Source: Arenibacter catalasegens (GTDB lineage: Bacteria; Bacteroidota; Bacteroidia; Flavobacteriales; Flavobacteriaceae). Taken from it: a DNA stretch of 64,000 nt. Shown one piece after another: positions 1 through 21,727 of this stretch. Under the pieces are notes generated by a model. That model had not been told where the DNA came from. It was given only the letters and a program-made list of their open reading frames with translations, and ran no database searches. A program made the position numbers and the translations under genes. The stretch lies in assembly GCF_002909235.1 (NCBI RefSeq), contig NZ_PHQQ01000001.1, positions 310,001 through 374,000 on the forward strand, given 5' to 3'. Position 1 is the first letter of the stretch. Each line of letters starts with the position of its first letter.

Positions 1-1920
1 AGATCATTTGACCAAGACTATAGAGGTATAGGTCTGGATCCTACAAGTATCTATGATTTGCAACCTGGTGATGTAGCTCACGATTGGCAATACGGTAGAA
101 ATCAAAATGGTATTGGAGGAACAGGAGATGCAGGTGTAGCGGCGAAGTTTGATAATTCACAAAGATGGAAAAAGACATATTTTGGGAACGTGAGTTCTTA
201 TTTACAATATGAAATCATAGAAGGATTAAATTTAAAAACCATTTTTGGAGCAGATCTTCAAGATACCCAAACCTACGAATATCATGGAATATTATCAGAT
301 GGTCAACAACGTTCCAATCAAACAGAGTTGGATATATCCAATATAAAAAAATCTACTGTTTTAAGTACGACTACTTTAAATTATGCAAAAGTTTTTGCTG
401 ATAAGCACGATATATCTGCGGTGGCTGGAATGGAATTTGTAAATACATATTATAAGGGAATTGTAAACAATGGATCAAACGTGGCATTTGGTCTGCCATT
501 AAATTATGATTTTTTTGACCCTGCAGATGTGATTACCAACGAGATAGATGAGACTCAGTCAAGAAATGGTTTTTTTGGAAGAATTGCTTATGCGTTTGAT
601 GATCGTTATCTACTATCGGCATCCATTAGAAGAGATGGTGATTCACGATTTGGAGCCAATGAAAAATACGCGGTATTCCCAGCACTATCCTTAGGCTGGA
701 ATATTCATAATGAATCCTTTTTTGGAGATGCTGATGGGTTTAGCCTATTTAAACTTAGGTTTAGTACTGGATCTTTAGGAACGGCTTCTTTCTTAGGGTC
801 ATACAACTCATTAAGTATTTTGGGAACCTCACCGACCGCTTTCGGGACAGGATTTCTAATTCCGGAGGATATAGCAAACCCAGATTTAACTTGGCAAACC
901 AATAAAGAGACAAACTATGGTGTTGATACAGGGTTTATAAATAACCGTTTCAGATTGAGTGTAGATTATTATACGTCTGATGTAAATGATATGTTGATCA
1001 ATCAAAGTGTTTCTGAAGTTCTTGGGACACCTGCTATAAAACTTAATCGCGGTGATGTGACCAGTTCCGGTTTGGAGTTTGAACTTAATGCAAAAATAAT
1101 TGCCGATCAAAACTTCTCTTGGAATGTTAACGCCAATTTATCAACTGCTAAATCAGAAATTACCAATCTAGGTGAATTGACCGAACTGCCCAGGCAAATT
1201 TACGGTGGACCGAGTGGAAGAGGTCCTGAGTTTAGAAACTATGTAGGAGGTGAAATTGGTGAAATGTGGGGATATGAAGTAACTGGTGAGGTTGAAACGA
1301 TACATATGTCGGATCCATCCAGAGGCGTTGGATTTGGCAGCGGAGAATATTATGTCGTAGACCAAAACGGTGACGGTGAAATTACCTATGAAGAAGATTA
1401 TGTAAAGTTAGGATCCGCAACCCCGGATTTCTATTGGGGACTTTCAAGTTCTATGAGCATCAAGAATTTTGATTTTTCGTTCCAGTTCCAAGGATCTCAA
1501 GGAGCAGAACTTTACAATATAGACCCCATTTACTGGAAATCACAATTTGGCGGTAGATTAAAATCCAGTTTTGATGCCAATAATGACGGTATTGCCGATG
1601 CCAGTGGCAAGTTTTATCAGGAGACCAGAAATGCACATGGTTCGGGGATTCAAGATGCTTCCTTTACCGCTTTAAGAAACATAACTTTAGGTTATACCCT
1701 TGATTCTGATTTAACGGATAAAATTGGTATAGGTTCTATGAGGGTATATGTTGCAGCTACCAATTTGTTGTACATAATGGCAGATAATTATACCTCATTT
1801 AACCCTGAAGGTGTAGAGATCGAAAATACAGGTTATGCTGGTCCAACAACTTACGGATACCAAGAAGGTGCGAGCCCGCTTGTAAGAAGTTTTACTTTGG
1901 GTGTAAATGTTAATTTTTAA
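1..1920 (+). CDS. SusC-type TonB-dependent outer-membrane receptor, 3'-terminal part
   Basis: The frame is open from the first base, so the gene starts upstream of the window and only the C-terminal 639 residues are visible. What is seen is a long run of alternating polar/aromatic strands ending in a short aromatic strand (LGVNVNF), as expected for the beta-barrel of a SusC/RagA receptor; the signal peptide, carboxypeptidase-like domain and plug lie outside. SusC proteins import oligosaccharides across the outer membrane with energy from TonB. A susD homologue starts 10 bp after the stop, so the two form the usual pair. Downstream regulator, permease and SDR suggest a uronate-rich substrate such as alginate, but the barrel itself does not show this. 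Confidence 0.93.
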   Translation, partial: RSFDQDYRGIGLDPTSIYDLQPGDVAHDWQYGRNQNGIGGTGDAGVAAKFDNSQRWKKTYFGNVSSYLQYEIIEGLNLKTIFGADLQDTQTYEYHGILSDGQQRSNQTELDISNIKKSTVLSTTTLNYAKVFADKHDISAVAGMEFVNTYYKGIVNNGSNVAFGLPLNYDFFDPADVITNEIDETQSRNGFFGRIAYAFDDRYLLSASIRRDGDSRFGANEKYAVFPALSLGWNIHNESFFGDADGFSLFKLRFSTGSLGTASFLGSYNSLSILGTSPTAFGTGFLIPEDIANPDLTWQTNKETNYGVDTGFINNRFRLSVDYYTSDVNDMLINQSVSEVLGTPAIKLNRGDVTSSGLEFELNAKIIADQNFSWNVNANLSTAKSEITNLGELTELPRQIYGGPSGRGPEFRNYVGGEIGEMWGYEVTGEVETIHMSDPSRGVGFGSGEYYVVDQNGDGEITYEEDYVKLGSATPDFYWGLSSSMSIKNFDFSFQFQGSQGAELYNIDPIYWKSQFGGRLKSSFDANNDGIADASGKFYQETRNAHGSGIQDASFTALRNITLGYTLDSDLTDKIGIGSMRVYVAATNLLYIMADNYTSFNPEGVEIENTGYAGPTTYGYQEGASPLVRSFTLGVNVNF

Positions 1921-1930
1921 TTAAGAAAAA

Positions 1931-3265
1931 ATGAAAAAAATGAAAACTATATATCTAGCAGTAGTTTCCTTGTTGTTGATAACAGCATGTGATAACGATT
2001 TGGATCAATCGCCACCATTATTACTTGAATCCAGTGCTTTGGAGGAATTTGGACCCGTTTTGAATGCAGCGTATTACTATCAGACCGGTGGTTCAACTCC
2101 ACTGGGTGTGATGGGCGACTTTAGGGCCGACAATATGTTGATGTTAGAAAGCCCATATACGGCATTTGACACCTACAATGCAGATTTAGGAGGTTTAGAT
2201 TTGGTAGAACAATTTTTTCGACCATTCTATAGCAATTTGTACAAGGCCATCTTAAGTGCCAATAACGTTATTGAAAATTCAGCGAAGCCTAGGGAGATAG
2301 CGGAGGCCAAATTTTTAAGAGCATTGTCTTACTTTAAATTGGTAATGGTATTTGGTGATGTCACCGTGAATTTATCTCCTTCACCCAGCCCATCGGATTT
2401 GACCATTTTAAAAAGACAACCGGCTGCCGACGTATACAACAACGTAATCATCCCAGACTTTCAAGCCGCAATAGCTGGTTTAGACAATTCTGGATTGGCA
2501 AGTGGGCGCGCGTCCAAAATTGCGGCTCAGGGTTTTCTAGGAAAAGTATATATGTACCGAGGGAATTTTTCAGAAGCTTCAACAACACTTGGAGCTGTTG
2601 TAAGTGGTGCTGCCGCTGCAGGGGTTAGTTTAGAAAGCGACTTTGCCAACGTTGTAGTCGACGGTAATTCAGAAATCATTTTTGCTACCCAATTATCAAC
2701 TTCAGTTCCAAACGCATATGGATCAGCCACCACGTTTGTAGGATGGTATACCGGGGCAGACACAAAAGCCCTTACCCCTTTAGATCCAAGCTTAATTGCT
2801 GCTTTTGACGCCAGTAGTGCTGCTGGTGGAGGTACAGATTTAAGAAAGGCGCTTACTATAGATACGGATAATATGAATGGTAGTAACAAATATACTGGAG
2901 CCCTGGATCAGGACTTTATAGAACTGAGGTTATCCGATGTTATTCTAATGTACGCAGAAGCACTGAATGAAAATAGTTCTCCTTCAACAACTGTACTTCC
3001 ATTATTGGATCCTATAAGAACTAGAGCAGGTTTAAATAGCCTAACTGGAACAGTAAGTTCACAAGCTGATGTTAGACAGGCTATTGCTGACGAAAGAAGA
3101 GTGGAGTTGGCCCTTGAAGGACATAGATGGTTTGATTTGGTGAGAACGGGTACCGTAGATGTGGAAATGGGAGCAACGATTAGTAGTAATTACCATGTGT
3201 TTCCAATACCAAACTCAGAAATTCTTGCGAGTGATGGAGTTATTACTCAAAATGATGGTTACTAA
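1931..3265 (+). CDS. SusD/RagB-family outer-membrane lipoprotein
   Basis: This 444-residue protein begins with a lipoprotein signal ending in a lipobox (LITAC, Cys20), so it should be anchored in the outer membrane facing outwards. The middle has helical TPR-like segments and the C-terminal third carries SusD hallmarks: RLSDVILMYAEALNE, then DERRVELALEGHRWFDLVRTG. Family members cap the SusC barrel and bind the incoming glycan. It follows SusC by 10 bp and is followed by a strong hairpin terminator, so the SusCD transcript probably ends here. A second ATG lies at 1940, three codons in, and could be the true start. Length is slightly short for the family (usually about 500), typical of alginate- or small-oligosaccharide-type SusD proteins. 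Confidence 0.93.
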   Translation: MKKMKTIYLAVVSLLLITACDNDLDQSPPLLLESSALEEFGPVLNAAYYYQTGGSTPLGVMGDFRADNMLMLESPYTAFDTYNADLGGLDLVEQFFRPFYSNLYKAILSANNVIENSAKPREIAEAKFLRALSYFKLVMVFGDVTVNLSPSPSPSDLTILKRQPAADVYNNVIIPDFQAAIAGLDNSGLASGRASKIAAQGFLGKVYMYRGNFSEASTTLGAVVSGAAAAGVSLESDFANVVVDGNSEIIFATQLSTSVPNAYGSATTFVGWYTGADTKALTPLDPSLIAAFDASSAAGGGTDLRKALTIDTDNMNGSNKYTGALDQDFIELRLSDVILMYAEALNENSSPSTTVLPLLDPIRTRAGLNSLTGTVSSQADVRQAIADERRVELALEGHRWFDLVRTGTVDVEMGATISSNYHVFPIPNSEILASDGVITQNDGY

Positions 3266-18343: not shown

Positions 18344-19027
18344 ATGAGCGAAAGCATATTGCAACTGAAGGATGTAGCCGTATTCCAGGGAGAAAATTTA
18401 GTACTGAACGATATTAGCCTTGAAATAAAAAAAGGAGAGTTCGTATATCTTATAGGGAAGACGGGCAGTGGAAAAAGTAGCTTTATGAAAACTTTATATG
18501 GCGACCTCCCGTTAAAGCAAGGGAGCGGCAACATTGTGGATTTCGATCTCACCACCTTAAAGGAAAGGGATATCCCATATTTGAGAAGAAAACTGGGAGT
18601 TGTTTTTCAGGATTTTAAATTATTACCGGATCGCAACGTCAACAATAACCTACTGTTTGTATTAAAAGCTACCGGTTGGAAAGACCAGAGCGAAATGAAC
18701 GCCAAAGTTGAAGATGTCTTGGATAAAGTAGGCATGAAAACAAAAGGCTTTAAATTTCCACATGAACTATCGGGTGGAGAACAACAGCGGATTGCCATAG
18801 CACGAGCCCTTCTAAATGATCCAGATTTAATTCTTGCGGACGAGCCAACAGGGAATCTAGACCCTCAAACCAGCGTAGAGGTAATGAAAGTACTTCAGGA
18901 CATCAACAAAACAGGGAGGACTATCCTAATGGCCACGCACGACTACGCCCTTATTCTTAAATATCCATCCAAGACATTGAAGTGTGATGGCAATAAGGTG
19001 TTTGAAGTTATACAACGAGCAGTTTAA
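18344..19027 (+). CDS. ftsE: ABC-type ATPase FtsE
   Basis: The 227-residue ATPase has Walker A GKTGSGKS (residues 38-45), the Q-loop in VVFQDFKLL, the ABC signature LSGGEQQR and Walker [10 protein letters not shown]. It ends with the switch histidine in LMATHDY. Length and the short [10 protein letters not shown] insertion fit FtsE, which pairs with the membrane protein FtsX to activate peptidoglycan hydrolases at division. LolD/MacB-type ATPases are similar, so the call relies on overall style. No ftsX lies next to it, which is usual for Bacteroidota. It is divergent from the TPR gene, with 147 bp between them. Confidence 0.85.
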
Positions 19028-19164: not shown

Positions 19165-19215
19165 GTTCAGTTAAATCCAAAGTCGCTTCACTTACCATTT
19201 TGTCCACTTCACTTA
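19165..19215 (+). promoter_or_regulatory. Triple direct repeat with 21-bp period, candidate LytTR operator
   Basis: Three 9-mers lie at 19165-19173 (GTTCAGTTA), 19186-19194 (CTTCACTTA) and 19207-19215 (CTTCACTTA). Their starts are exactly 21 bp apart, two helical turns. LytTR-domain regulators (AgrA, VirR, ComE and others) bind pairs of 9-bp direct repeats separated by about 12 bp, the same geometry. The array ends 31 bp before the -7 box of the repeat-protein gene, an activator position, and a LytTR regulator is encoded 1.7 kb downstream. Confidence 0.7.
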
Positions 19216-19246
19216 ATAACTACCTTTTATACACTATAAGGCCCTG

Positions 19247-19254
19247 TATCTTTG
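19247..19254 (+). promoter_or_regulatory. -7 box (TATCTTTG) of the repeat-protein gene
   Basis: Exact match to TAnnTTTG, 46 bp before the ATG at 19301. There is no good TTTG at the -33 position, which suits a promoter that needs an activator bound at the upstream 21-bp repeats. Confidence 0.65.
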
Positions 19255-19300
19255 TGCCATAAACAAGATGTATCACAAAATAATTATAAAATTAAATAAC

Positions 19301-19783
19301 ATGAAAAACGCAGCTTTATTAATAAGTACTATACTAGTATCTCTTTCGCTGTTCTCATTTTCAGGAAAGGACAAATGTTTAAAAACTGAAGGCATCAACT
19401 GCTATTTAGAATCCCATAACCCCTTTGCAGAAGGATTACTTTTGGATGAGGAAATAAGAAATTTAAGCCTGGATCAAATTAACCTTGTTAATGAGGAGGA
19501 AGAAATTATTCTAGGATTCGATACAGCAACCTACCTTCCCCTTGGATTTGATGCTTATGCTGGGATGGAATTGGATCTTGACGATATTATTGTGGAGGAC
19601 TTGGAAGAAGAAATTGTTTTGGATTTTGATCCAGCCAAATATCTTCCTATAGGTTTTAATGCATATGAAGGTATGGAACTGAACCTTAGCGATATCGTAG
19701 TAGAAGAAATAGAGGAGGAAATAAATCTTGGTTTTGAGGTTATGAACTATCTTCCTAAAGGATTTGACCCTTTCTCTAAATAA
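19301..19783 (+). CDS. Secreted acidic protein with three 36-residue repeats
   Basis: The protein is 160 residues from the ATG at 19301; the frame is open from 19268, but this start puts the signal peptide (ALLISTILVSLSLFSFSG) first. Two cysteines follow at 26 and 34. From about residue 67 there are three copies of a unit built around EEIxLGFD...YLPxGFDAYxGMELxLxDI, with YLP at 78, 114 and 150, so the period is exactly 36 residues; the third copy is cut short. The mature protein is very acidic. I do not recognise a function. It lies directly before a LytS/LytTR pair and behind a phased operator array, so it is probably the target of that system, or the signal or adhesin it controls. Confidence 0.8.
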   Translation: MKNAALLISTILVSLSLFSFSGKDKCLKTEGINCYLESHNPFAEGLLLDEEIRNLSLDQINLVNEEEEIILGFDTATYLPLGFDAYAGMELDLDDIIVEDLEEEIVLDFDPAKYLPIGFNAYEGMELNLSDIVVEEIEEEINLGFEVMNYLPKGFDPFSK

Positions 19784-19811
19784 AGAACAGTTTTATGGGT
19801 CGGCTACATAT

Positions 19812-19843
19812 AAGCCCTTGGTATTTCCAAGGGCTTATTTTTT
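19812..19843 (+). terminator. Terminator after the repeat-protein gene
   Basis: Perfect 10-bp stem AAGCCCTTGG / CCAAGGGCTT with a 5-base loop and a T run. It separates the repeat-protein gene from the kinase/regulator transcript. Confidence 0.9.
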
Positions 19844-19931: not shown

Positions 19932-20969
19932 ATGGATAGTCCAAAACAGGTACAGCAGCTCGAAATTATAAAAATTGCCCTTCTGATCGCTGTTTTAGTG
20001 ACCCTTCCACTGACCATATCGCTTTTCAGGTCAACCGGATTTCATAAAGGGATTTTTTCCAGTGAGCTGTTTGTAGATCTTGATTTAAAATTCTGGTTTT
20101 CTTTCCTTTTTTCATGGTCCGCACTTCAGTTCAATACCAATTTTATTTATCGCATTCCTAAAAGGAACCGCTTAATGGATTGGGGATTGAGGCTCGTGGG
20201 CAATATTGGAATCCTAGTGGCCACAATTTCAATCCTAAATTTAGTATACCCTATTTTTATTGAAAAGACCATTTCCAATAGAGAAGAGGATTTTCAAGTT
20301 TTTATATTCATCGTTGTCCTCATTATCATACTTTTTATTTCTAGAATCTTAAGGCTTAAAATTATTCAAGGTGAAAACATTCTGGAGAACGAACATTTAA
20401 AACAGCAAAACCTACAAAATGAACTTTCTGCCCTAAAGAATCAAATCAACCCGCATTTTCTTTTCAATTCCCTAAATACACTCAATTCCCTTATACGAGA
20501 CAATAAGGAGGCCACCATGTTTGTTAAAAAGCTTTCCTTTATGTACCGTTATATATTGCAAAGCGGGGATAGAGATCTGGTAACTTTAAAAGAGGAACTT
20601 AAATTTTTAGAAAGCTATACCTATTTAATAAAAACAAGATACAGGAACCGTTTTCAAATTGAAATCGCAATTGACGAAAGTTATCTGGACAGAAAAATTC
20701 CACCTTTGGCATTGCAATTATTGGCAGAAAATGCAGTAAAACATAACGAGATTTCGGAATCACATCCTTTAAAAGTTCAAATCTACTCCCAGGGCGAATG
20801 CCTCTATGTGGAAAACAAAGTACGGGCGCGTACTACATTGGCGGAAGGTACCGGTACTGGACTTTTAAATCTATACAAACGTTATTATATGATAAGAAAA
20901 CAGCAAATTATTGTGGATAAACAAAATGATATTTTCCGCGTAAAGTTACCTTTGAACAAAATGACATGA
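19932..20969 (+). CDS. LytS/YehU-type sensor histidine kinase
   Basis: The 345-residue protein has four membrane segments in the first 140 residues (about 12-32, 54-72, 88-110 and 122-140). After a coiled linker comes the His_kinase phospho-acceptor box NPHFLFNSLNTLNSLI with His175. The ATPase domain has LALQLLAENAVKHNE and GTGTGLLNLYKRY. No extracytoplasmic domain of note is present, so the signal is probably sensed in or near the membrane. The last four bases of the gene (ATGA) overlap the start of the LytTR regulator, so the two are translationally coupled. Confidence 0.92.
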   Translation: MDSPKQVQQLEIIKIALLIAVLVTLPLTISLFRSTGFHKGIFSSELFVDLDLKFWFSFLFSWSALQFNTNFIYRIPKRNRLMDWGLRLVGNIGILVATISILNLVYPIFIEKTISNREEDFQVFIFIVVLIIILFISRILRLKIIQGENILENEHLKQQNLQNELSALKNQINPHFLFNSLNTLNSLIRDNKEATMFVKKLSFMYRYILQSGDRDLVTLKEELKFLESYTYLIKTRYRNRFQIEIAIDESYLDRKIPPLALQLLAENAVKHNEISESHPLKVQIYSQGECLYVENKVRARTTLAEGTGTGLLNLYKRYYMIRKQQIIVDKQNDIFRVKLPLNKMT

Positions 20970-21727
20970 AAGTAGTAATAGTAGAAGATGAATTGGCGGC
21001 AAGTGAAAACCTTGTCTATATGCTTAAAAGCTTAGAGGATACCATTGAGGTATTGGCCGTTCTAGACTCTGTAAAAACCTCAGTTGATTATTTTTCTCAT
21101 AATCAGGGGGCTGACCTAGTTTTTATGGACATACACCTGGCCGATGGACTGTCATTTGAAATTTTTGACGCAATTAAAATTGATGCTCCCATAATCTTTA
21201 CTACCGCTTATGACCAATATGCCTTAAAGGCTTTCAAACTAAATAGCATCGATTATTTATTAAAACCCATAGATGAGGATGAGCTAGAAGAAAGCCTAAT
21301 TCAATTTAAAGATCAAAAAAAAGGCAAGGGTCTTATTTCCAATCAAGTAGAGGGATTATTACATTTATTAAAAGATCAGAAAAGAGGCTACAAATCAATG
21401 TATTTGGTCCATCACCGAGATGAATTGATTCCATTAAAGACTGAAAAAATTGCGTACCTATATATTGATAACGGAATAGTTAAAGCGGTAACCAAGGATA
21501 AACAAACTTATGTCATAGAACAAAAATTGGAAGATATTGAAAATGAACTGGACCCTTCTATTTTTTATAGGCTAAACCGCCAATTTATTGTTCAAAGGGA
21601 TGCCATTTCCGGTATTAAACAATATTTCAACGGAAAACTTATCGTTAATGTTATCCCGACCTATGAGGAGCGGGTAATTGTGAGCAAAGCCAAAGCAGCC
21701 GAATTTAAAAATTGGATGAATTATTAA
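20966..21727 (+). CDS. LytTR-family response regulator
   Basis: The 253-residue regulator has a receiver domain with the acidic pair in VIVEDEL, phospho-acceptor Asp55 in VFMDIHLADG, and FTTAYDQYALKAF plus DYLLKP near its end. A LytTR DNA-binding domain covers about residues 150-250, with YLVHHRDELIPLKTEKIAYLYID and FYRLNRQFIVQRDAI. LytTR proteins bind 9-bp direct repeats; such an array lies upstream at 19165-19215. It is coupled to the kinase gene by a 4-bp overlap. Confidence 0.93.
   Translation: MKVVIVEDELAASENLVYMLKSLEDTIEVLAVLDSVKTSVDYFSHNQGADLVFMDIHLADGLSFEIFDAIKIDAPIIFTTAYDQYALKAFKLNSIDYLLKPIDEDELEESLIQFKDQKKGKGLISNQVEGLLHLLKDQKRGYKSMYLVHHRDELIPLKTEKIAYLYIDNGIVKAVTKDKQTYVIEQKLEDIENELDPSIFYRLNRQFIVQRDAISGIKQYFNGKLIVNVIPTYEERVIVSKAKAAEFKNWMNY

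Follow-up and report, generated by a model that had tools for sequence, protein, structure and literature searches.

In the genome of Arenibacter catalasegens, three copies of a short sequence stand at regular steps between an ABC-transporter ATPase gene, which ends at 19027, and a gene for an acidic repeat protein that is followed by genes for a LytS-type kinase and a LytTR regulator. This arrangement raises the question of whether the repeats serve as the operator of that regulator. The window analyzed here is the whole 64,000-nucleotide stretch of this genome, and all coordinates refer to it. The preliminary description had named the repeats a putative operator of the LytTR protein encoded at 20966, and this reading has held up: the site tracks the orthologs of the regulator, is absent around its 22 paralogs, and has operator-like geometry. 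The element is a conserved promoter element, and, judging from sequence comparisons, the adjacent regulator very probably docks at the three repeats. The complete explanation, in which the LytS/LytTR system encoded next to the repeats uses them as its operator and the regulator binds them and activates the repeat-protein gene, appears highly likely. The features of the locus are as follows.

19165..19256, + strand, whole putative operator-promoter element (scoring 56.7 bits against sequence model R1, which was built from 38 regulator-adjacent training sites, the window's site among them)
19166..19173, + strand, putative distal operator unit 1, TTCAGTTA (exact match)
19187..19194, + strand, putative middle operator unit 2, TTCACTTA (exact match, orthologue alignment, 59-site profile)
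19208..19215, + strand, putative promoter-proximal operator unit 3, TTCACTTA, at approximately −51 to −44 from the inferred start (exact match, alignment, profile)
19247..19254, + strand, −7 box TATCTTTG, 39 bp from the start of unit 3, a distance nearly fixed in relatives
19259, + strand, inferred transcription start, from the placement of TAnnTTTG in F. psychrophilum
19301..19783, + strand, secreted, strongly acidic repeat protein of 160 amino acids (ATG at 19301 in an open reading frame that opens at 19268)
19810..19838, + strand, intrinsic-terminator-like hairpin with a 12-bp stem, between the repeat-protein and kinase genes
19932..20969, + strand, LytS-type sensor histidine kinase (His_kinase, PF06580, 8.3e-26)
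20966..21727, + strand, LytTR response regulator (receiver, PF00072, 1.2e-12; LytTR, PF04397, 3.3e-20)

Both Pfam matches of the regulator exceed the curated cutoffs, giving the receiver-plus-LytTR architecture, and its gene has a 4-base overlap with that of the kinase, a pairing with a LytS-type kinase that is usual for such regulators but does not define them. In a search of solved structures, the regulator was matched in its receiver half only. The kinase displays, by eye, about four hydrophobic segments. The repeats of the acidic protein carry the motif YLPxGF(N/D)xY; this protein matched no Pfam family at an E value of 0.1 and no NCBIfam family at 0.01, and structure prediction yielded no usable fold (mean pLDDT of 59.9, pTM of 0.15). 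Terminator-like sites number three in the scanned stretch, compared to a mean of 2.2 in shuffled sequences, and the stem at 19810–19838 is the longest of them. The LytTR Regulatory System consists of a receiver-less LytTR regulator beside a membrane inhibitor; membership in this class was considered and ruled out by the receiver domain and the histidine kinase.

The three copies of TTCA(G/C)TTA do recur at steps of exactly 21 bp, as previously noted, whereas the starts given for them (19165, 19186, and 19207) are each one base too low, the true ones being 19166, 19187, and 19208. The TAnnTTTG box reported downstream of the repeats is present as TATCTTTG at 19247–19254, and the reported lack of a good −33 element is confirmed by the absence of TTG or TTTG from 19217–19246. 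In relatives, the −33 region displays a weak A/T preference of ∼0.5 bit in a profile of 59 nonredundant sites. The same profile revises the length of the repeat unit, which had been taken as 9 bp and is better described as ∼12 bp with the consensus GnCRYTTCACTT. In F. psychrophilum, TAnnTTTG is described as occupying positions −12 to −5 (PMC9723704). Counted from the start inferred at 19259, the units would lie at approximately −93 to −86, −72 to −65, and −51 to −44, all on one face of the DNA. LytTR operators are defined as direct repeats of ∼9 to 11 bp separated by spacers of 10 to 13 bp (PMC4847170 and PMC11347149). The repeats in the window agree with this length and spacing, their 21-bp steps are conserved, and, with three units two turns apart, they have the arrangement of the CoxC/RcoM1 type.

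With the base composition of the window, ∼0.04 TTCASTTA pairs and 2.5e-6 triples are expected per genome. The pair TTCASTTA-N13-TTCASTTA is found in the window at this place only and in none of 100 shuffles; in the whole 5.45-Mb genome, it has two overlapping matches, both belonging to this triple (the backward-read control gave 1), and a looser pair combined with a TAnnTTTG box was found nowhere else in the 5.45 Mb. TAnnTTTG by itself occurs 84 times in the window against a shuffle mean of 85.2, that is, at chance level, so that what supports the −7 box is that relatives have it at the same position, and not its own occurrence. A sigma-70 scan returned 9 sites, compared to 10.4 in shuffles.

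Alignment of orthologous promoters, which the preliminary description had proposed as a means of refuting the operator, instead supports it, as the units keep their 21-bp spacing in front of orthologous repeat-protein genes. Aligned with the window, the three unit positions are free of gaps in 14 Arenibacter loci and in Kriegella, Eudoraea, and Cerina (17 relatives), before the same gene in each case, and the third unit in these promoters starts 38 or 39 bp upstream of TAnnTTTG. L033, L034, and L036 have a degraded distal unit. Across genera, the spacers diverge while the units stay conserved.

The regulator sequence was used to retrieve 80 loci (the regulator locus set). Scanned for a pair of units followed by the box, they yielded 80 hits spread over 58 loci; the reversed sequences yielded 3, each in a different locus. 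Dropping 21 near-identical sites left the 59 nonredundant ones, in which the box distance, allowed to vary from 34 to 43 bp, is 39 bp in 42 sites, 38 bp in 16, and 37 bp in 1; the last was also dropped, leaving 58 sites for a leave-one-out profile. Unit 1 is TTCA-like, matching 3 or all 4 letters, in 51 of these 58 sites, though it was not used in finding them, whereas such matches at other offsets average 5.2 sites with a maximum of 15, and the position 21 bp further upstream has only 5; three units are thus typical of this group, and a fourth is not. With the leave-one-out profile, the highest score among 80 reversed controls was 14.7; of the 80 loci, 72 exceeded it, and L061, L081, L097, L098, L099, L102, L103, and L107 did not. 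Among the 64 loci L028 to L090 and L093, only L061 and L081 failed, both of them short of most of their upstream DNA.

The distal unit is unrecognizable in Bacteroidales loci such as L096, L099 to L101, and L103 to L105, which, together with its degradation in the loci named above, indicates that three units are not indispensable everywhere. Bacteroidales loci such as L103, which falls below the control, and L104 and L105, which exceed it, retain two units, and there the box sits immediately in front of the predicted kinase start, a placement that suggests autoregulation of the kinase gene in those loci. A stricter scan, with two TTCANTTA units and one mismatch in all, was abandoned: it missed the Arenibacter orthologs because their units deviate from this form (e.g., TTCACCCA as the middle unit of L028), and it was the looser scan and the profile that found them.

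The genome encodes 23 LytTR domains. The other 22 LytTR proteins were covered by 20 regions, in which the profile score reached at most 6.8 (9.4 in reversed controls), compared to 61.7 for the window, close relatives of which were in the profile; with model R1, the window's site was the only match at E values up to 1 in the window and these 20 regions. Among the best 150 candidates per genome, 16 of 18 Arenibacter genomes have one strong site each (E ≤ 1.4e-9) and otherwise weak ones (8.7e-4 or worse), while G013 has a single weak match (0.02) and G015 has none. The repeat protein is likewise present in 16 of the 18 genomes and absent from G013 and G015, in which the best relatives of the regulator are 40 to 41% identical to it and represent paralogs (5 of the 18 genomes were examined in this respect). 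The suggestion that the locus forms a self-contained module fits Arenibacter, with its one strong site in 16 of 18 genomes, but fits less well in relatives, which have more sites in front of other genes.

In a set of 199 genomes, one per genus, the site (E ≤ 1e-3) was found in all 23 genomes with a regulator ortholog and in 10 of the 176 without one (Fisher p of ∼1e-22, not corrected for relatedness). Orthologs were defined by at least 53% identity, a cutoff set after seeing a gap down to 48%, and 2 of the 23 are fragments; the site search covered the best 21 candidates per genome under strict filters, and absences are to be read at that sensitivity. In 18 of the 23 ortholog-bearing genomes, the best sites were not R1 training sites, though close relatives of them are training rows. 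In G034, the regulator-near site is weak (2.7e-4), and a different contig carries the strong ones. Of the 10 site-bearing genomes without the ortholog, G089, G175, G031, and G183 carry the site within ∼3 kb of a sister regulator (43 to 48% identity), and G023, G062, G163, and G197 have weak sites (5e-4 to 7e-4). The single-contig genome G072, in which the best regulator relative is 40% identical and has the motif SRK, is a counterexample: a repeat-protein gene is still preceded there by a strong site (L249:10213-10954). G167 has two sites, one of them strong and the other weaker (L250:4138-4780). By eye, the latter adjoin genes resembling oxidoreductase and hydrolase genes. An exact pattern occurred at 60 places in 43 of the 199 genomes, versus 8 in the backward-read control.

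These data bear unequally on the alternatives to activation by the adjacent regulator. A functionless repeat born of chance or duplication is exceedingly unlikely: short AT-rich repeats do arise randomly, and the chance frequency of TAnnTTTG fits such an origin, but the vanishing number of triples expected per genome, the conservation of units across genera with diverged spacers, and the excess of hits over the reversed sequence (80 to 3) do not, and the orthologue alignment already contradicts it. A better case can be made for another regulator, LytTR or unrelated, as the main ligand of the operator, with the adjacent system merely sharing its regulon. The genome offers 23 LytTR domains to choose from, and strong sites occur in G072 and G167, neither of which has an ortholog of the regulator. 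This reading is nonetheless improbable given the presence of the site in 23 of 23 ortholog-bearing genera compared to 10 of 176 others, its absence wherever the regulator is missing in Arenibacter, and the lack of it in the neighborhoods of the other 22 LytTR proteins.

Slightly more credible, although still unlikely, is a CoxC-like mode, with the adjacent regulator bound at the three units and repressing the repeat-protein gene. CoxC is described as repressing from three direct repeats, but these overlap its −35 box (PMC11347149), whereas the proximal unit here ends ∼44 bp before the inferred start. The lack of a good −33 element also speaks against repression, as it is shared with the promoters of most LytTR activators, whose binding sites lie upstream of −35. 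As the units lie immediately upstream of the would-be −33 element, activation by the adjacent regulator seems to be favored.

The preferred explanation can be put as a sequence of events. The kinase (19932–20969) would phosphorylate the LytTR regulator (20966–21727), which would then occupy three direct half-sites on one DNA face, two helical turns apart. From the proximal unit, 39 bp before TAnnTTTG and just upstream of the would-be −33 element, it could recruit sigma-A RNA polymerase and thus switch on a promoter that has no good −33 element, yielding a secreted acidic repeat protein from a gene with its own terminator. This protein, in turn, may feed back on the envelope or on the kinase. 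The binding, its dependence on phosphorylation, the choice of activation over repression, the number of protein molecules involved, and the feedback are the parts of this scheme that we infer.

Residues 200 to 206 of the regulator, in its LytTR domain, read FYRLNRQ and depart from FhRhHRS, the commonest form, which is common without being defining. In the ortholog group, the N, R, and Q of the motif (residues 204 to 206) are found in 77, 80, and 80 of 80 proteins, respectively. Of all 22 paralogs, counted without a filter on residue 206, 19 have H-x-S and the other three have SRK (L109), NRS (L125), and NRQ (L127). There is no site near L127 despite its NRQ, so specificity must be set by more than this motif. 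NRQ is also found in four sister regulators with nearby sites. In AgrA, N201 and S202, the counterparts of the last two residues of the motif, are described as touching DNA (PMC4227749).

The operator is found in many related marine bacteria, and other envelope genes are among those behind it there. Sites in relatives precede genes for other repeat proteins, lipoproteins (assigned by eye), DUF6515 and DUF4251 proteins, and lipocalin-like proteins. Proteins of 51 to 62 amino acids are encoded directly behind the operator in several loci (L057:6978, L043:2211, L048:2541, L070:7437, and others); their C-terminal ends resemble one another in being Ala/Gly-rich and basic, and a Pfam search with two of them returned one weak below-cutoff match and no family.

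A different type of target is indicated by five regions from four genomes (L240 to L244 in G149, G185, G034, and G209), chosen as clusters of sites, which carry operator arrays or scattered copies (in L240, at 1793–3071). Here, 16 of 22 sites have a strong terminator at most 150 nt downstream and no ATG frame of 45 codons, compared to 1 of 109 sites in the 80 regulator loci; in shuffled downstream sequence, a terminator was found in 0 of 22 and 1 of 109 cases. The short transcripts predicted in these regions look like small RNAs of ∼90 to 150 nt. Three of the four genomes have a core in common, GTAAGTTTTTCATATNGTTAGTTTGGTTAGTTT, which hardly varies and is present in 12 of 13 such transcripts there; it has 18 copies in all in 3 of the 199 genomes. 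Rfam gave no match in six small-RNA and neighboring regions. The complement of the core resembles, by eye, a translation start. When 3 genomes were searched for possible pairing partners of the core, over 17 bases with no more than 2 mismatches, 33 places were returned, of which 18 were counted as small-RNA copies and the other 15 compare to 17 in the backward-read control, and no small-RNA target is therefore claimed.

We tentatively picture a Flavobacteriaceae-wide LytTR system, with apparent roots in Bacteroidales, whose phased three-site promoters may drive secreted acidic repeat proteins and also, in certain genera, small RNAs present in multiple copies, with a conserved core that could pair with translation starts; this is a real possibility, somewhat less likely than not. 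If true, it would represent an envelope response joining surface proteins and RNA regulators, of which no description was found in Bacteroidota. No LytTR operator from Bacteroidota was evident from titles and abstract openings in a search of mostly open-access literature. The consensus, the near-fixed promoter geometry, and the list of candidate targets were obtained from sequence alone; they make the regulon of an uncharacterized, widespread two-component system directly testable and provide a handle on the activation of Bacteroidota promoters that have no −33 element.

Comparison with known operators places this element in an existing category, as CoxC and RcoM1 already provide examples of triple LytTR operators and the three-site operator is thus not a new kind. 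Its prevalence here suggests that such operators are the norm in one response-regulator lineage and not a peculiarity of carbon monoxide regulators. RcoM1 is a one-component regulator, AgrA belongs to the peptide-sensing agr system, and YpdB differs from the system described here in promoter class and target. Like the element in the window, the operators of CoxC (Afipia) and RcoM1 (Paraburkholderia) are described as three direct repeats approximately two helical turns apart, but their consensus (the RcoM1 unit is TTCNNGCA) is other than GnCRYTTCACTT; CoxC also differs in having a membrane sensor domain fused to LytTR, with no receiver or kinase, and in repressing from an operator over the −35 box, and all three of its repeats are reported to be needed for efficient binding (PMC11347149). 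AgrA of Staphylococcus aureus resembles the regulator studied here as a LytTR response regulator that binds direct repeats upstream of promoters (PMC4227749), but it uses two repeats and has the motif FFRCHNS instead of FhRhNRQ. The closest parallel in sequence is with YpdA/YpdB of E. coli, also a LytS/LytTR system, in which the YpdB half-sites at yhjX are direct GGCATTTCAT repeats, 21 bp start to start and close to GnCRYTTCACTT, although that operator is described with two sites, A and B (PMC4847170). The yhjX oligonucleotide in the same report contains, by eye, TTCAT three times at 21-bp steps, and a third, upstream YpdB half-site may exist there.
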